A DNA stretch of 34,712 nucleotides from Methanobacteriota archaeon (GTDB taxonomy: Archaea > Thermoplasmatota > Thermoplasmata > Methanomassiliicoccales > Methanomassiliicoccaceae), in contig JAAYTA010000061.1 in the NCBI GenBank assembly GCA_012518185.1, positions 1-34,712 on the forward strand. The letters run 5' to 3'. Below the pieces are notes generated by a model. The model ran no database searches and was not told where the DNA came from. It saw only the letters and a list, made by a program, of their open reading frames with translations. The first letter of the stretch is position 1. Every line of letters begins with the position of its first letter. Positions 6,613-34,675 of this stretch are shown here, one piece after another. The position numbers and the translations under genes are program-made.

Positions 6613-7833
6613 TCATTCCTCGTCAAGAAGGCGCTTCTCTCCTTCTAGTTCCATTATACCAGTAACGTTTTGAACGACTTCTACCGCTCCGCGATAATTT
6701 CCACTTTTATCTCGGATCGGATAAAATCTGATGTGTATCTTCTTCCCTTCCATGTTGATCCAGAACTCTGCCTCATCCCTTTCTCCCGATTTGAATTCCC
6801 CAACTATTTTCTGAACAGCATGTAAGCTTTTACTGGGATGGCAATTCTGAACCTTACGACCGATCACCGCTTCAGTCCGTATAAATATACGTTCAGCAGG
6901 CGTGGAGAAATAACGGACTCGATCGTCTTCACCAACATAAGTTATCTCTACAGGTAGAGCATTGAAAATCATATTCACTTCTTCAGCTGTCAGTTTCCCA
7001 GTCAGCAGATCTACTTCTCCATGCTTATCTTCCTTAATGTCTTCAGGCACTATAGGTTGAAATCCAATCTGTGCATGGTGCGGTACAAAAGAACATGCTC
7101 CAATATCATCGAACTGGCGTATTACCTCATTCCATTCTAATATATCCATTACGTTGAGAGCTTGTGGGAACAATACATGGTTTTCTTTGTGGAAATGAGT
7201 ATTTAGCAATGAAAGCAATTGAGATATTGAGCATGCTAATATGTCATATGAGATGCTTGCTCCCTCACTCATTTCATTTATGAACGTAACTATTTCTTTC
7301 TCCTTGCGGCGAAGTACATCGTGTTCCGCCCACATGCGAGCTGGTGGACCAGTTATTCCATGCCGCTCCATATACGGGAATAGGACATTCTCTTCTCTCT
7401 GGAAATGCTTCCTTGACTCACTTAAAAAAGGTGGAAAATCTCTTAATCTATTATGATCAGATTCATCACCTTTTCCGCTGGCAAGTCTGATAGACGAATC
7501 TCTTGCTTTACTGACACATCCTAAGATATAGGCATGCTCTTCCATTAGCGTGTGGATAGGATGTCCTGGAAGCTCAAGGAGTTCCTCTTCAGTTTCAGTG
7601 ATATCTGCCATATAACGTATGTGAGCATCACACAATACTAGCATGTCATCAATGGCCCATCCCTCTTTAGAAAGTTGATTTTCCGCCTCTGCCACCTCGA
7701 AAGGATCTAGAGTTTCCATGAACTTGCGATATGACTGTTCTTGGACATCCTGATCTCCTTCTCGCAACTTGTCAACAAGATTCTTTAGTTTGCTCTTCAA
7801 GCTGCTATCTATCTCAATGCTTACTCCATCCAT
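6613..7833 (-). CDS. DUF438 - hemerythrin-like - PAS domain protein
   Basis: A 406-residue putative sensor. Order of domains: DUF438 (about 15-85), a hemerythrin/HHE four-helix domain (about 90-230), and a C-terminal PAS domain (about 280-392). Likely di-iron ligands are H94 or H100, H143 with E147, H171, and H213/H215 with E217. The PAS part has TYVGEDDRVRYFS and the RDKSGNYRGAVEVVQNVT close. Family members are thought to sense oxygen, nitric oxide or redox state through the iron site, with the PAS domain binding a ligand or relaying a signal. No kinase, HTH or cyclase output domain is attached, so the output partner is unknown; the small gene at 6231 is the immediate downstream neighbour. 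Domain calls are firm, the sensed signal is inferred. Confidence 0.9.
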   Translation of the reverse strand: MDGVSIEIDSSLKSKLKNLVDKLREGDQDVQEQSYRKFMETLDPFEVAEAENQLSKEGWAIDDMLVLCDAHIRYMADITETEEELLELPGHPIHTLMEEHAYILGCVSKARDSSIRLASGKGDESDHNRLRDFPPFLSESRKHFQREENVLFPYMERHGITGPPARMWAEHDVLRRKEKEIVTFINEMSEGASISYDILACSISQLLSLLNTHFHKENHVLFPQALNVMDILEWNEVIRQFDDIGACSFVPHHAQIGFQPIVPEDIKEDKHGEVDLLTGKLTAEEVNMIFNALPVEITYVGEDDRVRYFSTPAERIFIRTEAVIGRKVQNCHPSKSLHAVQKIVGEFKSGERDEAEFWINMEGKKIHIRFYPIRDKSGNYRGAVEVVQNVTGIMELEGEKRLLDEE

Positions 7834-13451: not shown

Positions 13452-14045
13452 CTATACTACTAGATGTAATCCTGATGAGCCTGTTATGAATGGTAAATAA
13501 ATCATCTTGGCTTCATTTACCGTGAGAGAATATTCGAGATGCTGAAGTATTCCCGGATTTTCAGCCTCTAAGATCATTACGACAAAATCTGTCAACTCAA
13601 TGGCATCCTCTTGACTGATTATTGTAGGAATACGCTTCACTTCATCAAAGTCTTTCATAATCTCGTAACTGGGATTATTTATGGTCAAGTTTACTGTCCA
13701 ATATCGAAATGCATCTTTATCGATTTGTGATGCTGGCATGTAGATGTAGATTGAGCCATTCCTACCCCCATCCTCCAACTCCTTACCCATCTTAGAGAAG
13801 AAGCCTCCATCTACATCACCTGATGTTATGTGGAACTCAGATAATATCCTCCAGAAAGGAACATAAATACGATTCTCTTTTGGAGAATCTTCAGGGAATC
13901 CTGCAATCTCGTATGATATTTGATCTATCGTCGGAGGATTATATGTATGAATAGCTCTGCAAGTAGGGCAATAAAGCAATTCATCATATGATTCCATGCA
14001 GAGTGTTAGCTCACATTTAGGGCATTTAGCCTGCTGGATCTTCAT
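13452..14045 (-). CDS. zinc-ribbon protein, soluble (third of a tandem set)
   Basis: A 197-residue protein with an N-terminal zinc ribbon, C8-x2-C11 and C26-x2-C29, followed by an alpha/beta region that contains RIYVPFWRI, similar in style to the YPI-PFW stretch of its two upstream neighbours. Unlike them it has no membrane segments; the C-terminus (IYLPFITGSSGLHLVV) is only weakly hydrophobic. It overlaps the upstream gene by four bases (ATGA), which implies translational coupling. It may be a soluble, shortened relative that partners the membrane-bound ones. Function unknown. nfeD and SPFH follow 92 bases downstream. Confidence 0.75.
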   Translation of the reverse strand: MKIQQAKCPKCELTLCMESYDELLYCPTCRAIHTYNPPTIDQISYEIAGFPEDSPKENRIYVPFWRILSEFHITSGDVDGGFFSKMGKELEDGGRNGSIYIYMPASQIDKDAFRYWTVNLTINNPSYEIMKDFDEVKRIPTIISQEDAIELTDFVVMILEAENPGILQHLEYSLTVNEAKMIYLPFITGSSGLHLVV

Positions 14046-15040
14046 ACTATTACCTCTTCTGATGCATCATCTGGATCTATTTCAGATACAGACAAGCTTA
14101 GACGTTCTTTAAAATCTCCCTTGATGACCTCAGATCTATGTTGGAAGAACAAATATGTTATTCCCAATATTATCAATCCTAATATGACGCCTGCAATACC
14201 TACCTCTGATTGATATGATATGGAAGATATTATACCGCCAGCTGAAGTTAACCCTCCTGCTGATGTCCCAAGTGTCACTGCCAAACTTTGATATAATGGA
14301 TCTCGCGGCGCACGTCCACTGAGAACTTGTCCAGTGATGCCGTCTATAGTGACAAAGTATGCGTAATTTTGATAAGTGTAACGAACAATCCATATTGGAT
14401 AATATATCATGCTTTTTTTGTGAATTAGAGAATGTAGCTTTTCGAAAGTTATCTTCGATATATTTGTGCTAGCTCGGCTGCGCGATATGGCATCAGTCTT
14501 GGCATGCTCTATAGCTTCATATTCATCAACGATTAAATCTAATGAAGGTATCTGGCCTATATCTTCAAAATATAATTCACCATTGAAGTTTTGCAATGAT
14601 TGTATGCCCAAATCACTTGGATCGCAGGCCATCTCAGAGAAGTGAGTACCATCGAATATCATCTCCTCTCTGTATATTTTTTCTATGTGATTGTTTCCTT
14701 CAGAATCTGTAGCCTGAAATTCTTCATACCCACATATCCATCCAGCGGTTCGAGTTTCGATATGCCAGAAGGGTAAATGAATGGGATATGATTCTGTAAT
14801 GGTAGCGACACTCTTGAGATCTCTAGCTTTTAATCCCTTCTTCCACCAGTTCTGAACGATCTCTAAAGCACTATCTTTATCCAACTTGTTCTTGAAGGCA
14901 GCAGTATTGAATCCACCATCATTTTCAATGCAAAGAGTTGAGCCGCAATAGCGGCAATTTACTATTACTCCACTTTCACTAGAGAATATGTCGCCTCCGC
15001 AAGATGGACAATTCAGGCTTACTGCTAGCTGATTTTTCAT
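14042..15040 (-). CDS. zinc-ribbon protein with two C-terminal membrane segments (second of a tandem set)
   Basis: A 332-residue protein. The zinc ribbon is C11-x2-C14 and C29-x2-C32. A central region includes KARDLKS, SYPIHLPFWHIE and later MIYYPIWIVRYTYQNYAYFV, then APRDPLYQSLAV just before two hydrophobic segments (about 255-275 and 282-302) and a charged tail. The upstream 250-residue protein has matching blocks (KIRDLDA, YFPIYIF, FFPIWELEYRYQDKIY, PTRDPIRYMSLAI and two helices), so the two are paralogues by architecture and motif. The bulk of the protein is expected on the cytoplasmic side with a C-terminal membrane hairpin. Overlaps downstream by ATGA; only one base separates it from the gene upstream. 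Function unknown. Confidence 0.8.
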   Translation of the reverse strand: MKNQLAVSLNCPSCGGDIFSSESGVIVNCRYCGSTLCIENDGGFNTAAFKNKLDKDSALEIVQNWWKKGLKARDLKSVATITESYPIHLPFWHIETRTAGWICGYEEFQATDSEGNNHIEKIYREEMIFDGTHFSEMACDPSDLGIQSLQNFNGELYFEDIGQIPSLDLIVDEYEAIEHAKTDAISRSRASTNISKITFEKLHSLIHKKSMIYYPIWIVRYTYQNYAYFVTIDGITGQVLSGRAPRDPLYQSLAVTLGTSAGGLTSAGGIISSISYQSEVGIAGVILGLIILGITYLFFQHRSEVIKGDFKERLSLSVSEIDPDDASEEVIV

Positions 15041-15041
15041 A

Positions 15042-15794
15042 TTACGCCCTCCTTGTCATAATAAATGAAGTTGCGAAAATTGCTGCTATCGTTATAGCCA
15101 TTAGGGAGATTCCTGCGGCCATATTCATGGTAGTTAAGAATCCTTCAACAGTTAAGGCAATGAATCCTCCAATGGCTAAAGACATATATCGTATAGGATC
15201 ACGCGTTGGCAATTCTGATGTGAATACATCTGAAGAGTATGCATCTACTATCGCAGTATATATTTTATCTTGATATCTATATTCTAATTCCCAGATTGGG
15301 AAGAATGCTAAAGTTTGTTCTTTAGATTTTCCCGGCAAACTAGTTAGATAATAATTCATGGAAATATCTGGATGAATTATCTCTGCCTCATCAGAATCTA
15401 AATCATCGCCAAGAGATTTAGGATCAATTCCTAAAACATTCAGTTGCCGAGGGCCGTGAAGTATGGTTGATTTAGCAGGTTTGACTATTCGCTCTTCTTT
15501 ATCCCCAATATCTCGTTTGAATATATAGATAGGAAAATATTTTTTATTAGCTATGATGATGTCTGTCAGAGCATCTAAATCCCTGATCTTTGTCGAATTA
15601 TTAATCCATGCTCTAAATGCATCAGCTGCATCATTTTCAGATAACTCAAACGGTATGATTTGATAATAGATAGGTCCTGAGTGGTTGATGTAGATCTGTG
15701 ATGAACAATGAGCACATTTGATGAATTTAATCTCTGCATCGAGTTTTATTATCCCGGCACATTTGGGGCATTTAATATCTCGCATAATATTCAC
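15042..15794 (-). CDS. zinc-ribbon protein with two C-terminal membrane segments (first of a tandem set)
   Basis: A 250-residue protein: zinc ribbon C9-x2-C12 and C27-x2-C30, a central region with FFPIWELEYRYQDKIY and PTRDPIRYMSLAI, and two hydrophobic C-terminal segments (about 203-222 and 226-246) ending in RRA. It is the shorter paralogue of the next gene. The start may be GTG at 15794 or ATG at 15785. A strong TATA box (TTTAAATATA on the minus strand, 15821-15830) predicts transcription starting within a few bases of the GTG, so the mRNA is probably leaderless. This promoter likely drives all three zinc-ribbon genes and perhaps nfeD and SPFH. Function unknown. Confidence 0.8.
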   Translation of the reverse strand: MNIMRDIKCPKCAGIIKLDAEIKFIKCAHCSSQIYINHSGPIYYQIIPFELSENDAADAFRAWINNSTKIRDLDALTDIIIANKKYFPIYIFKRDIGDKEERIVKPAKSTILHGPRQLNVLGIDPKSLGDDLDSDEAEIIHPDISMNYYLTSLPGKSKEQTLAFFPIWELEYRYQDKIYTAIVDAYSSDVFTSELPTRDPIRYMSLAIGGFIALTVEGFLTTMNMAAGISLMAITIAAIFATSFIMTRRA

Positions 15795-28335: not shown

Positions 28336-29376
28336 ATGGGCGTGAATTTATCAGCTATAATTACAGCGGAAAATTTATTACTGGAAGATCTTGAGAATAA
28401 AGTCATCGCTATCGATGCTTATAATGCGATCTACCAGTTCTTAAGCATCATACGGGGCCCTGATGGGACTCCATTAAAAGATGCGACGGGAAGGGTAACA
28501 TCTCATTTAACTGGACTGCTTTATCGGAATGTTAATCTCCTCGAGGCGGGGATAAAGCCCATATATGTTTTTGATGGCGTTCCGCATGAACTCAAATCCC
28601 AAACGCTTGCCGAACGTTCTGAGCGGAGAGTAAAAGCTCATCAAGAATGGAAAGAGGCAATCAGCGAGGGAGATATTGAGAGGGCTCGATGCAAAGCTAC
28701 TCAGTCGTCCAGAATGACTAATGAGATTGCAGAATCATCTCGTATACTTCTAACCTATCTAGGCATTCCTGTTGTACAGGCACCAGAGGAAGGAGAAGCT
28801 CAAGCTGCATATATGGCATCTAATGGAGAGGCATGGGCTGCTTCATCTCAAGACTTCGATTCATTGCTTTTTGGTGCGCCTAGATTAGTGAGAAATTTGA
28901 ATATATCTGGCAGGCGTAAGTTACCAGGATCTAGAGGCTATAAGGACATAAATATCGAATTTATTGAGCTTTCCAAAGTACTCGAGGAGAATGAACTACA
29001 GAGTAGAGAACAGCTAGTCGACTTAGCTATTCTCGTCGGAACTGATTATAATCCAGGCATAAGGGGAATAGGCCCTAAGAGAGGGCTAAAGCTCATACAG
29101 AAACATGGGGATCTACAAAGTGCCCTGGACGCCATAAGCGAAGACATACCTCAGGCAGAGTGTATTCAGAAGATCTTCCTTGATAGTGAAAAAATTGAAG
29201 TATCAGGATTAGAGTGGAATGAGCCAGATCGAGATAAGATAATTGATTACTTATCTAGAGATCATGGTTTTTCAAAAAATCGAGTCACGTCAGCATTAGA
29301 TCGCTTAAAGAGTAAGAAACGCGATAATAAATCAGAACAGTCGGGATCACAAGTAAGTCTAGATCGATGGGTCTGA
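28336..29376 (+). CDS. fen: flap endonuclease 1
   Basis: Structure-specific 5' flap nuclease used in Okazaki fragment maturation and repair. The 346-residue protein starts MGVNLSAII and has the N-terminal nuclease domain with D27 (IAIDAYNAIYQFL), VFDGVPHELK, the internal domain with APEEGEAQAAYM and SSQDFDSLLFG, all metal-binding acids, and the helix-two-turn-helix region GTDYNPGIRGIGPKRGL. The C-terminus, QVSLDRWV, is a PCNA-interacting PIP box ending at the last residue. The length is usual. The aligned start and downstream isoleucyl-tRNA synthetase (72 bases away) leave gene boundaries clear. Confidence 0.97.
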   Translation: MGVNLSAIITAENLLLEDLENKVIAIDAYNAIYQFLSIIRGPDGTPLKDATGRVTSHLTGLLYRNVNLLEAGIKPIYVFDGVPHELKSQTLAERSERRVKAHQEWKEAISEGDIERARCKATQSSRMTNEIAESSRILLTYLGIPVVQAPEEGEAQAAYMASNGEAWAASSQDFDSLLFGAPRLVRNLNISGRRKLPGSRGYKDINIEFIELSKVLEENELQSREQLVDLAILVGTDYNPGIRGIGPKRGLKLIQKHGDLQSALDAISEDIPQAECIQKIFLDSEKIEVSGLEWNEPDRDKIIDYLSRDHGFSKNRVTSALDRLKSKKRDNKSEQSGSQVSLDRWV

Positions 29377-29448: not shown

Positions 29449-32400
29449 ATGATAAAGCAGGTTCAGAATAATTATAGCCCTCCAGAATTGGAAAAAAGAG
29501 TACAGCAGCGATGGATCGAGACTGATGCTTACTGTAAGACTAAGGAGTTACGTGCCTCTGGGCAAGACTATTACTTTGTAGACGGACCTCCTTACACTAC
29601 TGGATCTATTCACCTGGGCACCGCCCTAAATAAGATCATCAAAGATTCTATAATCCGGTATAGGCGGATGCAGAATTTTAACGTCCGTGATCAGCCTGGA
29701 TATGATATGCATGGATTACCTATTGAAGTTAGGGTAGAGAAATCCATCGGCATTAAGAGTAAAAAGGATATTGAAGATTACGGCATAGATCGCTTTATTG
29801 CTAACTGTAGGGATTTTGCGCTGAGTCATCAGAAAATGATGACAGAGCAGTTCAAGGATCTAGGCGTATGGATGGATTGGGATAATCCCTACATGACTAT
29901 TGAGCCAACATATATCGAGGCAGCATGGTGGACTCTAAAGAAGGCGCATGAGAAAGGACTGTTGGTGTCCTCAAATCGAGTAATATCATGGTGCCCTCGT
30001 TGCGAGACAGCACTAGCTGAAGCAGAAATCGATTATTGGGAAGAGAGGGATCCTTCTATCTATGTTAAATTCCCATTGCGCAATGAACCAGATGTATCAT
30101 TACTCATATGGACTACCACTCCATGGACTCTGCCAGCTAATATGGCAGTAGCAGCACATCCTGAATATCGCTACGCCAAGGTGCGCTATAATCGAGAAGG
30201 GGATGAAGACACTATCATTTTACTTGAAGAGCTCATCGAACAAATTGGACAATTGGAGGATTGGGAATCCCATGAGGTGCTGGAAATAATAGAAGGTACT
30301 GATCTAGTCGGTACCGAATACATTCCTCCCTTAGAGGATGAAGTTCCAGTTCAAAAGAACGTAAGTGGCGAATGGGTACATCATGTAGTCCCATCCTCAA
30401 CTGTAGAAGCAGATATGACTGGTCTGGTACACATTGCACCAGGCCATGGTCCTGAGGACTTTGAAATAGGAAAGGAATTCGGATTAGATGTACTATGTCC
30501 TATTGATGAAAGTGGGAAATTCACAGCTGAAGGCGGCAGATACGAAGGGATGTTCGTAAAGAAAGCCGATCCAGTAATTATTGAAGACCTTTGCCTCAAG
30601 GGCCTAATGTTCCATGATGATTCTATAGATCACCGCTATGGCCACTGCTGGAGATGTAGATCAGGCATCTTATTCCGCAACACTGATCAATGGTATCTTA
30701 AAGTTACAGAAGTCAAGGATTTGATGCTGAGTGAGATCTCCCGTGTAAAATGGACTCCGGAATGGGCTGGATCGGGACGGGAATATGACTGGACGGCTAA
30801 TGCAAGAGATTGGTGCATATCTAGACAGCGATATTGGGGAATACCTATTCCAGTCTGGACGTGTGCCAACGGTCACATGAAAGTAATAGGTTCTCGCGAT
30901 GACCTAGAAGGTGGCGAAAATTATAGCCCTAATATGGATCTTCATCGCCCCTGGATAGATGATGTAGTGCTCAAGTGTGAGCATTGTGATGAAGATATGA
31001 AAAGGATAGAAGATGTCCTAGATGTGTGGTTTGATGCAGGAGTAGCTTCATGGGCTGCCTTAGGATATCCGCGTGAAAAGGCTGAGTTTGAAAGATGGTG
31101 GCCTGCTAAATTCATTACTGAGGCACACGATCAGACTCGTGGCTGGTTTTATTCCCAACTTGGCTCTTCCTGTGTCGCATTAGAACGTGCACCCTACGAT
31201 GAAGTATTAGTCCATGGCTGGATGCTCGATGGAAAGGGACTACCTATGTCAAAGTCTAAAGGCAATGTCATAGAGCCATCGGAAGTCATGGAGGAATTCG
31301 GAGCTGATGCACTCCGCTTCTACCTTCTCCGAGTTTCTGCCCCATGGGAAGATGTGTCTTTCCAAATAGAGGGTGTTAGAAATGCCCGCAGGACTCTTAA
31401 CATCTTATGGAACGTTGCCAGTTTCGCGACTATGTATATGAGCATAGATGGCTACGATCATCTAGCAAGTGATAGGGTACTGTTGAAAGACGTACTACGG
31501 CCAGAAGATCGCTGGTTAATATCAAGAGTAGAGGGACTTAAATCTAAGGTATCTAAAAATATAGAGTCTTGTGACCTTCATAGAGCATGCCGAATCATAG
31601 AGGAGTTTATTCTCGAAGATCTTTCACGCTGGTATGTGAGACTGATTCGGGATCGCATGTGGAGAGAGGCAAATGATCTTGACAAGTTAGCAGCATACTA
31701 TACGCTATATGAGGGATTGATGACTGCTACTAAGCTGCTTGCACCTTTCTGCCCACACATTACTGAAGAAATATATCAGGCAATGGATGGAAGTTTAGAT
31801 ACTGTTCATATGACTGATTGGCCAGTTTCTGATAATAATCTTATCAGCGAGGATCTGGAGACATCTATGTCGATTATGCAAGAACTCGTAGATGAGATTA
31901 CTAAGGAGAGGCAGAAAAAGAATGTTAAGCTCCGTTGGCCACTACAGAGGATCATTGTTAGTGTTGACGATGCAAGCACTATCGATCATATACTTCCAAT
32001 GAGAGACGTGTTGCTATCACAGGCTAATATCAAGGAGATTGAATTCATATCTCCCGGAGAAGAGTGGGATGGCCTTATATTAGATGCTGCACCAAATCTA
32101 AGAGCAATAGGTAAGGCTTATAGGCAGCTATCAACTCAAGTGGCTGATTTGTTAAAAAGTACGTCTGCTCAAGATATTAAGGATGCTCTTGATAGAGGAG
32201 ACCTCTCATTTGACATAGATGGAAAAGACATAGTTATAGAGCCCGAAATGGTATCATTCTCTACCTCTGTGCCAGACAATTACGCAGCTGCTGAATTCAA
32301 GCATGGCGATCTATTCATCGATTTCAACATGACTCCAGAGTTGAGAGCTGAGGGTTTTGCTCGGGAAATTATTCGTAGAATACAGCAGATGCGAAAAGAT

Positions 32401-32613
32401 ATGGAATTAGATGTTGAGGAAAATATCCGAGCGGAGATTAATGCCTCTGAAGATATTGAGGAAAACCTCAGGCCATGGCAGGACCATATAATGAAAGAGG
32501 TTAGAGCAATAGAAATGAGATTTATCGATAATCCTCAAGGCGAACATAAAGTGGAATGGGATATTGAGAAACAAGATGTCTGTATAGCTCTTACTTCAGT
32601 GCGTGAATCGTGA
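29449..32613 (+). CDS. ileS: isoleucyl-tRNA synthetase
   Basis: Charges tRNA-Ile with isoleucine. The 1054-residue class I synthetase has the HIGH-type motif at H55-L-G-T58 (TTGSIHLGTALN), the editing (CP1) domain with WTTTPWTLPANMAV and GLVHIAPGHGPEDFEIG, a zinc-type WCPRCETALAEAE segment, the tryptophan/isoleucine-specific WFDAGVASWAALGYP, and the KMSKS loop. The loop reads PMSKS (residues 599-603, GLPMSKSKGNVIEP), with proline replacing the first lysine. The anticodon-binding domain (about 690-850) and C-terminal extension follow. Length fits the archaeal/eukaryotic type. A 9-base word before the gene (29427-29435) is repeated inverted after it (32642-32650). A stable hairpin lies beyond the stop. 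Confidence 0.97.
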   Translation: MIKQVQNNYSPPELEKRVQQRWIETDAYCKTKELRASGQDYYFVDGPPYTTGSIHLGTALNKIIKDSIIRYRRMQNFNVRDQPGYDMHGLPIEVRVEKSIGIKSKKDIEDYGIDRFIANCRDFALSHQKMMTEQFKDLGVWMDWDNPYMTIEPTYIEAAWWTLKKAHEKGLLVSSNRVISWCPRCETALAEAEIDYWEERDPSIYVKFPLRNEPDVSLLIWTTTPWTLPANMAVAAHPEYRYAKVRYNREGDEDTIILLEELIEQIGQLEDWESHEVLEIIEGTDLVGTEYIPPLEDEVPVQKNVSGEWVHHVVPSSTVEADMTGLVHIAPGHGPEDFEIGKEFGLDVLCPIDESGKFTAEGGRYEGMFVKKADPVIIEDLCLKGLMFHDDSIDHRYGHCWRCRSGILFRNTDQWYLKVTEVKDLMLSEISRVKWTPEWAGSGREYDWTANARDWCISRQRYWGIPIPVWTCANGHMKVIGSRDDLEGGENYSPNMDLHRPWIDDVVLKCEHCDEDMKRIEDVLDVWFDAGVASWAALGYPREKAEFERWWPAKFITEAHDQTRGWFYSQLGSSCVALERAPYDEVLVHGWMLDGKGLPMSKSKGNVIEPSEVMEEFGADALRFYLLRVSAPWEDVSFQIEGVRNARRTLNILWNVASFATMYMSIDGYDHLASDRVLLKDVLRPEDRWLISRVEGLKSKVSKNIESCDLHRACRIIEEFILEDLSRWYVRLIRDRMWREANDLDKLAAYYTLYEGLMTATKLLAPFCPHITEEIYQAMDGSLDTVHMTDWPVSDNNLISEDLETSMSIMQELVDEITKERQKKNVKLRWPLQRIIVSVDDASTIDHILPMRDVLLSQANIKEIEFISPGEEWDGLILDAAPNLRAIGKAYRQLSTQVADLLKSTSAQDIKDALDRGDLSFDIDGKDIVIEPEMVSFSTSVPDNYAAAEFKHGDLFIDFNMTPELRAEGFAREIIRRIQQMRKDMELDVEENIRAEINASEDIEENLRPWQDHIMKEVRAIEMRFIDNPQGEHKVEWDIEKQDVCIALTSVRES

Positions 32614-32729: not shown

Positions 32730-33500
32730 TTACTCCAGTAAAGAGCGATAGACTTCCTCTAATTCGGGAACTGTCTTCATATTTTTTATCGCATCAGGAA
32801 GCATCCATCTATATTCAGTATGCTCCCAGTCAAGAGTGATAGAACGCTCATTTATTCTGAAGAGATATGGATGAATAATCCAGATCGTATTTCCATCTCT
32901 AACCTTGACAGATTCTCCAGAACGTATGAGCTCGGGATTAATTACACCGATCTCTTCTTGTATCTCTCTAATAGCTGCCTCTTTAGCCGTTTCACCGTCT
33001 TCTACATATCCACTAACAGCTGCCCAATGATCCTTGAATGAGCCGACCTTATTGCTGCGTTTTAGAAGCAAAACCTCATCGCCGCAATGTATGAATGATG
33101 ACACTGCATGAACTTCTTTGACGTCGGGTAATTCTACAGTGCCTTCTGAACCATCTATAATACATAGATCTCCTTCACAGAGTAAAGATAGATCGATACC
33201 ATCTACTAATGGTACTTCCGATAGTACAGCGCCGGTAGCCACTATTGGCTCAGCTGATTCGTTGATTATAGCTGTAGGTAAAGTTCCTACTCTCTTCATC
33301 TCAAGCATGACATATGAGCCGACTGTACTGCCTTTGCCGCGTGGAAATGCAAACACACGGTCTTTTATCGAACTTCCAGGGAGATCGATCAGTTCACCAG
33401 TCGATGGATTTACCTCTCCGAGGAAACTGATTGGAGTATCATTCAGTAGGATCGTCCCTTCAGCTTTACCGCGAGATATACCTCTCCCTTTCAACTTCAT
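32730..33500 (-). CDS. fusion of aconitase X small subunit (swivelling domain, DUF126) and Nudix hydrolase
   Basis: A 256-residue two-domain protein. Residues 1-125 are the aconitase X small-subunit domain (KGRGISRGKAEGTILL, then FPRGKGSTVGSYVML with the likely active-site S58), which with the large subunit encoded just upstream forms mevalonate 5-phosphate dehydratase of the archaeal mevalonate pathway. Residues about 130-254 are a Nudix hydrolase: the box G164-x5-E170-x7-R178-E-I-x-E182-E-x-G-V186 fits exactly. No stop, frameshift or gap lies between the domains. The start ATG overlaps the large-subunit stop by four bases (ATGA). The normal family small subunit is about 130-140 residues, so the Nudix part is an addition. 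It could act on a pathway diphosphate or have a housekeeping role; the sequence does not say which. Confidence 0.9.
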   Translation of the reverse strand: MKLKGRGISRGKAEGTILLNDTPISFLGEVNPSTGELIDLPGSSIKDRVFAFPRGKGSTVGSYVMLEMKRVGTLPTAIINESAEPIVATGAVLSEVPLVDGIDLSLLCEGDLCIIDGSEGTVELPDVKEVHAVSSFIHCGDEVLLLKRSNKVGSFKDHWAAVSGYVEDGETAKEAAIREIQEEIGVINPELIRSGESVKVRDGNTIWIIHPYLFRINERSITLDWEHTEYRWMLPDAIKNMKTVPELEEVYRSLLE

Positions 33501-34675
33501 GATATCAACTCCACAAGGCCCTTAGTATCGCGATAAACCACCTTTTGAGAACATAGAGTGGCTAAGTAGTTACAGGCCTTTCCAGAGTTAGTAGCAGTAC
33601 ATGCAAATCTTTCTTCTATAGGCGTTACGACCATGCAGGTGTCACATACTAATTTACCAAAACGTTCTAGCTCTTTTACCTCTTTTGGACATGAGGCAAG
33701 AGTCTGACGAGAAGTGCAGAACCAAACTTCAGCATCTCCTTGACGGCGGCGACCTTTCAATAATGAAGCTAAATTCCTTATCTCATCAGCCGATAGATGT
33801 GGACAACCAAATGCTATTAATTCTGGATCGTTGCCAGTATTTACTCCTTCTCTAGCAGTCTCCATCTCTTTTTTACCAATTGTGACTTTCTCTAGACCTT
33901 TAAGATCAAAGTCATTGGATTCTGGAGTAATCTCCTCAACATGATACATTGCTACCGAGCCTGAAGCAGCCATGGCAGCAGCTAAGGTCTTTAGTTGATC
34001 TACAGTTGGTCTGATCCCTCTAAAATAAGGAATTCTAGCTCCTACGATGGCACCGGCTGCCTGGCCCAGCATGGAATAATCAATGTCATCTCCCTCTACA
34101 TCTATAATTACTGCCGGTGCACGATTTTTATCAATGTGTAGTCCATATTTGGGAGTCTTACCTATTATAGCTGCAGCAAGAGCTCCTGGGCCGCCCTCAC
34201 GGTTAGTCTTTGCCCCTATCGCAGAGTTTGCAAAGCTTAATGCACTTGATTCTGCCCAGGCAATATGCTGTCCCCTCTTTGGCATATTTAGATCAAAATA
34301 TGGTGTGCATGAGCAATTTGAAGTAACTCCTAGCCTCTCATAGCAATCGATAATGTGTTGCTGCCGATCAGCGAAGCGTGGATTAATGCCCATTTCTTCC
34401 CAGCGACTTCGATCCATTCCCGCAGGATTTAGAGTAGCAGGCACACATATACGAGCATCTGCCATCTCTTCTAATAGGCCAATGCCTCCTTCTCCAATAG
34501 TCTTATATGAAACTCCAGATAGGTGCGCAGAGCTTATAGGTACTAGCTCTTCCGCACCGTAAATGTCCCCAAGTGCTACGAGTAATTCCATAGCCTTGCG
34601 CTTACCTTCTCCGCTCTCGCCTGCAAGGATGGCTTCCTCGTCCCTATTTAATTGCATTATATCTCTGTAAGTCAT
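33497..34675 (-). CDS. aconitase X large subunit (mevalonate 5-phosphate dehydratase)
   Basis: The 392-residue catalytic subunit of aconitase X, which in archaea is established as phosphomevalonate dehydratase: it removes water from mevalonate 5-phosphate to give trans-anhydromevalonate 5-phosphate, later decarboxylated to isopentenyl phosphate. It has ISSAHLSGVSYKTIGEGG, FADRQQHIIDCYERLGV, SCTPYF with C123, AESSALSFANSAIGAKTNREGGPG, FGCPHLS, CDTCMVVTP and TATNSGKACNY, containing the likely Fe-S cysteines. It ends four bases inside the start of the small-subunit-Nudix gene (ATGA), so the two polypeptides are made in coupled amounts. Presence of this enzyme argues against the mevalonate 3-phosphate route typical of Thermoplasma. 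Confidence 0.93.
   Translation of the reverse strand: MTYRDIMQLNRDEEAILAGESGEGKRKAMELLVALGDIYGAEELVPISSAHLSGVSYKTIGEGGIGLLEEMADARICVPATLNPAGMDRSRWEEMGINPRFADRQQHIIDCYERLGVTSNCSCTPYFDLNMPKRGQHIAWAESSALSFANSAIGAKTNREGGPGALAAAIIGKTPKYGLHIDKNRAPAVIIDVEGDDIDYSMLGQAAGAIVGARIPYFRGIRPTVDQLKTLAAAMAASGSVAMYHVEEITPESNDFDLKGLEKVTIGKKEMETAREGVNTGNDPELIAFGCPHLSADEIRNLASLLKGRRRQGDAEVWFCTSRQTLASCPKEVKELERFGKLVCDTCMVVTPIEERFACTATNSGKACNYLATLCSQKVVYRDTKGLVELIS

Follow-up and report, generated by a model that had tools for sequence, protein, structure and literature searches.

The window analyzed here is a whole contig of 34,712 nucleotides from an archaeon of the order Methanomassiliicoccales. A minus-strand gene pair lies at its end, and the contig stops at 34712, 37 bases beyond the start of the large-subunit gene. 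The features are as follows.

32730–33500, minus strand: small subunit fused to a Nudix hydrolase, 256 aa, a single open frame (ORF, Pfam, AlphaFold2)
33497–34675, minus strand: probable large subunit of mevalonate-5-phosphate dehydratase (PMDh; AcnX type IIb), 392 aa (PF04412, E = 1e-149; 7cnr_A, E = 9e-97)
33497–33500, minus strand: ATGA overlap of the large-subunit stop and the small-subunit start (sequence)
33129–33500, minus strand: swivel domain (DUF126/AcnX_swivel), residues 1–124 (PF01989; 7cnr_B, E = 6e-31; Foldseek rank 1, TM 0.91 to target)
33327–33329, minus strand: Ser58 of GSTVGSY, corresponding to Ser62(S), the general base in T. kodakarensis AcnX (alignment; PMC8184944)
32733–33119, minus strand: Nudix domain, residues 128–256, joined through a linker just a few residues long (PF00293; pLDDT 95.5; Foldseek)
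32943–33011, minus strand: Nudix box G164–V186, exact GX5EX7REUXEEXGU (sequence)
32805–32828, minus strand: subfamily signature WEHTEYRW, residues 225–232 (alignments)
29449–32613, plus strand: ileS, a convergent neighbor kept across the class that marks the ancestral locus (neighborhood comparison)
28336–29376, plus strand: FEN-1-like nuclease, the second conserved neighbor (Pfam, neighborhood comparison)

Pfam assigns residues 24–99 of the 256-residue protein to AcnX_swivel_put (E = 3e-27) and residues 133–252 to NUDIX (E = 2e-17), while residues 7–389 of the 392-residue protein match AcnX (E = 1e-149). AlphaFold2, run with 16 homologs, generates two confident domains for the fused protein (mean pLDDT 93.1), with the swivel reaching to about residue 123 and the Nudix domain starting at about residue 128. 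Foldseek matches the halves separately, one to the small subunit of T. kodakarensis AcnX and the other to MutT-like Nudix hydrolases. The preliminary description of this DNA, which reported one open frame, a perfect Nudix box from G164 to V186 and ATGA coupling to the large subunit, is accurate in these respects.

The frame between the swivel and Nudix domains is open, and this architecture is shared by 58 distinct sequences that come from many independent assemblies. Chance and frameshift are thereby excluded, and the fusion is confirmed as a genuine single protein. Nothing speaks for an assembly or frameshift error that merged two adjacent genes, and we give this reading practically no credence. 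The fusion is common to 76 sampled genomes, single-contig assemblies included, and an internal stop occurs in only one of them. The artifact is thus rejected on the conservation and distribution of the fusion. The sole irregular case is genome G400 (L102:7664–8451, plus strand), where the Nudix part carries a frameshift found in this genome only, through either assembly error or recent loss.

Distribution of the fusion and its dehydratase half

A profile of the whole fusion recovers it at full length in 57 of 57 sampled Methanomassiliicoccales genomes and in 19 more that represent eight further families within the class Thermoplasmata. In the rest of the phylum, swivel and Nudix genes are separate, and among the matches listed for 121 Thermoproteota all are separate, with no fusion. 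The lineages with DUF126-Nudix fusions sought by the preliminary description are therefore found across much of one class and not among the matches listed for Thermoproteota, and its view of the small subunit as ordinarily a protein on its own, about 130 aa long, agrees with the separate swivel genes of both groups. Given this distribution, the fusion looks like an ancient, derived trait of Thermoplasmata. The Nudix tree requires few changes for the history of the fusion, with too few columns for a firm count of origins, and places the window sequence among the Methanomassiliicoccales, nearest to UBA386, DTU008, and RumEn M1. In fusion neighborhoods across the class, ileS and FEN-1 are the sole conserved genes, with no isoprenoid genes among them.

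The active-site residues of the dehydratase are well preserved. In the small subunit, Ser58, Thr59, Val60, and Leu27 are invariant across the fusion alignment; in the T. kodakarensis enzyme, Ser62 is the general base, and Val64 and Leu27 also have roles in the active site (PMC8184944). Compared with 7cnr_A, the large subunit keeps the three cluster cysteines (CTPY, GCPH, and D-x-C-x-V) and the substrate residues (Glu of AESSA, Asn of TLNPAG, and Lys of NSGK). The pair thus combines a swivel that bears GSTVG and the catalytic serine with an adjacent large subunit that has the cluster cysteines and MVA5P-binding residues of AcnX type IIb, and we strongly infer that the two form a mevalonate-5-phosphate dehydratase. 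As in A. pernix PMDh and T. kodakarensis TK1247/TK1248, there are two subunits from adjoining genes, with the active-site residues of both. Known archaeal PMDh small subunits end at about 130–140 aa, whereas here a Nudix hydrolase continues in frame. Our literature search found no paper on PMDh together with Nudix, and DUF126 with Nudix only in an Arabidopsis N-degron paper; the fusion gives a known enzyme subunit a domain variant that is apparently undescribed.

The Nudix half and its separation from the dehydratase

The Nudix box, GYVEDGETAKEAAIREIQEEIGV, agrees exactly with the hydrolase consensus GX5EX7REUXEEXGU, its REUXEE part reading REIQEE. The domain adopts the Nudix fold in the model (pLDDT 95.5), with a TM of 0.8 to several Nudix hydrolases, and is predicted to be a catalytically active, metal-dependent pyrophosphatase. 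Its Foldseek matches are MutT, NudI, RppH, and Ap4A hydrolases, NudB, NudI, and NudJ are among the nearest characterized folds, and the solved sequences and folds closest to it are nucleotide hydrolases. With enzymes of the MutT/NudI/NudB type (3grn, NudI, DHNTPase, Ap4A hydrolases) it has the fold, the exact Nudix box, and the length in common, but it is only about 20–25% identical to them and carries its own signature, WEHTEYRW, the conservation of which among stand-alone relatives partly reflects how these were chosen, as several were fetched with the pattern. It also falls below the cut-off of every NCBIfam equivalog (NudB, NudI, MutT, NudG, RppH, and NudC; best score 41.1 bits vs 103). 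Assignment of a substrate through a curated family or the nearest structure failed, since all matches were below cut-off or about 20–25% identical.

The preliminary description also pointed to the likeness with type 1 IPP isomerase (IDI1). The two belong to one distant Nudix homology clan and have an isoprenoid setting in common, but the IDI1 motif is GX5EX7RRAXEEXGI (PMC5389931), with RRAXEE where the Nudix half has the hydrolase form, and IDI1 is absent among the listed structural and sequence matches. The window's genome carries the type 2 isomerase (IDI2). Of 41 relatives tested, nearly all have it too (37 over the family cut-off), the few exceptions being fragmentary genomes. The Nudix half as a missing IPP isomerase is rejected, because IDI2 is present and the IDI1 motif is not.

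Both halves of the fusion are under purifying selection. The Nudix box is intact in 57 of the 58 distinct fusions, and pairwise dN/dS is 0.06–0.18 for the Nudix half and 0.04–0.19 for the swivel (simple Nei–Gojobori estimates, with some dS near saturation). The one exception, G211, has two copies that have divided the jobs (L099 and L098). The copy beside the AcnX large subunit keeps GSTVG but has a dead Nudix box, with EVVEAALGL in place of REUXEEXGU; the other, elsewhere in the genome, has lost GSTVG and has a decayed swivel but an intact Nudix box.

Several lineages have parted the halves altogether. In Sysuiplasma (L045) and in genome G404 the locus lacks the large subunit and the swivel is decayed past Pfam detection, while the intact Nudix gene still adjoins ileS and FEN-1, as at the Methanomassiliicoccales locus. 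The G404 genome has IPK, but neither an AcnX large subunit nor UbiD or UbiX over cut-off. Across the Sysuiplasma-like family (f18), Nudix is kept in 7 of 8 genomes and UbiX is missing in 6 of 8. Five genomes of genus g29 (G123, G308, G406, G408, and G412) likewise lack AcnX and keep Nudix; their UbiD matches are of a longer type (about 500 aa), and they lack the shorter type of the AcnX-bearing genomes, which is probably the pathway decarboxylase. In G341 and G344, AcnX and a stand-alone swivel form a separate pair, and a Nudix of the same group lies elsewhere. HHalign identifies the decayed domains as swivels with probabilities of 97.2% (Sysuiplasma-like) and 96.6% (the f7 group), and in the Nudix tree these sequences nest within fused clades. 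For two f12 proteins (L046 and L095), the N-terminal region reaches only 7.6% against the swivel, too little to identify it as a decayed swivel. Some of the genomes with losses are drafts, which weakens single absences but not the overall pattern. As Nudix stays intact after loss of the large subunit, the swivel or UbiX, and as the G211 copies have split, the Nudix half has a job of its own.

Contexts of the subfamily and the role of the Nudix half

Stand-alone archaeal kin (such as L051, L105, and L170) are similar in domain sequence and size (about 130 aa) but, unlike the window protein, are unfused and lie mostly away from AcnX; the prospect of stand-alone Nudix genes beside aconitase X was in the main not realized. 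At 15 of 18 Thermoproteota loci (L170–L187) the stand-alone gene comes immediately after aroC, chorismate mutase, and tyrA; its other neighbors are a thiD-thiN gene and, on the opposite strand, thiC. In a DPANN archaeon (L054:2919–4004, plus strand) a subfamily Nudix is in one frame with a Ham1/RdgB-type ITPase. In the Thermoproteota genome G488 (L174:3548–4888, minus strand) its fusion partner is an IF-2B domain whose nearest match is ribose-1,5-bisphosphate isomerase (PDB 5yfs, E = 9e-46). Some Nudix hydrolases cleave PRPP to ribose 1,5-bisphosphate. This fusion suggests that a Nudix reaction supplies R15P, PRPP being one possible source. A group of stand-alone members in another class adjoins a PIN-KH ATPase, Trm5, a geranylgeranyl-reductase-like gene, and PcrB/GGGPS. 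The contexts of the kin do not converge on isoprenoids; many have to do with nucleotides or small diphosphates, as would fit a pyrophosphatase acting on such compounds.

Plant NUDX1 and NUDX3 are Nudix hydrolases that take the terminal phosphate off prenyl diphosphates; they and NudB act in this way on IPP, DMAPP, or GPP. In E. coli, NudB converts IPP to IP and DMAPP to DMAP, and NudB, NudI, and NudJ all act on IPP/DMAPP (PMC6058358). In the window's own genome IPK, IDI2, and a polyprenyl (GGPP)-synthase-like gene adjoin on one strand (L151:5788–8622, minus strand). IPK is present in all 25 class genomes tested, in one as a fragment. In genus g29 (L139–L142), 10–17 kb separate a Nudix with a decayed swivel from IPK and IDI2, and metK and a radical-SAM-type gene lie in this interval; we judge this proximity weak as pathway evidence, as it was seen in four genomes, all of one genus, and the intervening genes are unrelated.

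The reading we favor, with a probability of roughly 55%, is that an independent small-molecule pyrophosphatase was merged with the dehydratase by operon fusion. A stand-alone archaeal Nudix gene would long ago have been appended in frame to the gene for the PMDh small subunit, and the fusion then fixed in much of Thermoplasmata. By its conserved residues and the solved structures, the swivel half would still pair with the large subunit and supply the serine base for the dehydration of mevalonate 5-phosphate to trans-anhydromevalonate phosphate. The Nudix half would work as a metal-dependent pyrophosphatase with a role independent of this step, most likely on a common small diphosphate or nucleotide in house-cleaning or salvage, and the benefit of fusion would be fixed co-expression instead of substrate channeling. 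The retention of Nudix without the large subunit in Sysuiplasma, in G404, and in the five g29 genomes counts in its favor. On the other side, fixation over so deep a group suggests more than chance co-expression. Lineages without AcnX still make isopentenyl phosphate and have IPK, so a metabolite link would survive the loss, and Nudix does lie near IPK/IDI2 in g29 and beside GGGPS and a geranylgeranyl-reductase-like gene in another class. Sequence alone does not tell which substrate a Nudix enzyme takes.

The main competitor, to which we give clearly lower odds, is a pathway-linked hydrolase that returns IPP and DMAPP to IP and DMAP, either as a return valve against IPK or as a source of DMAP for the UbiX prenyl-FMN of a UbiD-type decarboxylase. 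The fixed fusion to a PMDh subunit, the isoprenoid gene cluster in the window's genome, and the NudB, NudI, and NudJ folds all favor it, as does a Phe of the genome's UbiX that aligns with F181 of the DMAP-specific Pseudomonas enzyme. It fits less well with G404, which keeps Nudix without the large subunit, UbiD, or UbiX in a family mostly devoid of UbiX, with four subfamily-bearing genomes (L049, L050, L055, and L057) that have no IPK over cut-off, with a Thermoplasmatales-like family (f9) that has IPK but only weak Nudix matches, and with the unrelated contexts of the kin (Ham1, R15P isomerase, aro/thiC). The link to isopentenyl phosphate put forward in the preliminary description is thus favored by the fixed fusion, the presence of IPK in all class genomes tested, and the related folds, and opposed by the survival of Nudix after partner loss, the carriers without IPK, and the diverse contexts; a specific role in isoprenoid synthesis is possible, and the evidence is mixed.

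A narrower form of this proposal concerns cofactor supply. F181 is not the sole determinant in Pseudomonas UbiX, as its mutation alone left specificity unchanged (PMC6541611). Because the pathway makes IPP and DMAPP from IP, a DMAP-dependent UbiX in such archaea would presumably need DMAP from DMAPP. That the Nudix half provides it, for the prenyl-FMN of the decarboxylase that acts next after the dehydratase, strikes us as doubtful. If true, the pathway's end product would feed the synthesis of a cofactor that the pathway itself needs, and the enzyme responsible would be part of the dehydratase, one step ahead of the decarboxylase. The persistence of Nudix where UbiX and UbiD were not found weakens DMAP supply as a general function and argues against it as the only role. 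A non-catalytic or regulatory Nudix half, which would tune or stabilize PMDh on binding a nucleotide or a prenyl diphosphate, is improbable. In its favor, the very short linker must hold the domain near the dehydratase, but the catalytic glutamates are conserved in 57 of 58 distinct fusions, and Nudix is retained after loss of the dehydratase.

Archaeal membrane lipids are all made through mevalonate pathways, and little is known of how these are controlled or of their side reactions. That one of the pathway enzymes carries a covalently attached hydrolase across a class that includes gut methanogens offers a directly testable lead, and the lineages with parted halves reveal which half can be lost. 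Should the Nudix half act on IPP/DMAPP, it would provide a return valve or a cofactor supply inside the archaeal pathway; should it act on nucleotides, it would be a clear warning against inferring function from fusion alone.

Elsewhere in the window, three successive genes at 13452–15794 (minus strand; 197, 332, and 250 aa) have no Pfam match. The protein encoded at 6613–7833 (minus strand) combines DUF438, hemerythrin, and PAS domains and is possibly a redox or oxygen sensor, in a host that is presumably an anaerobic methanogen.
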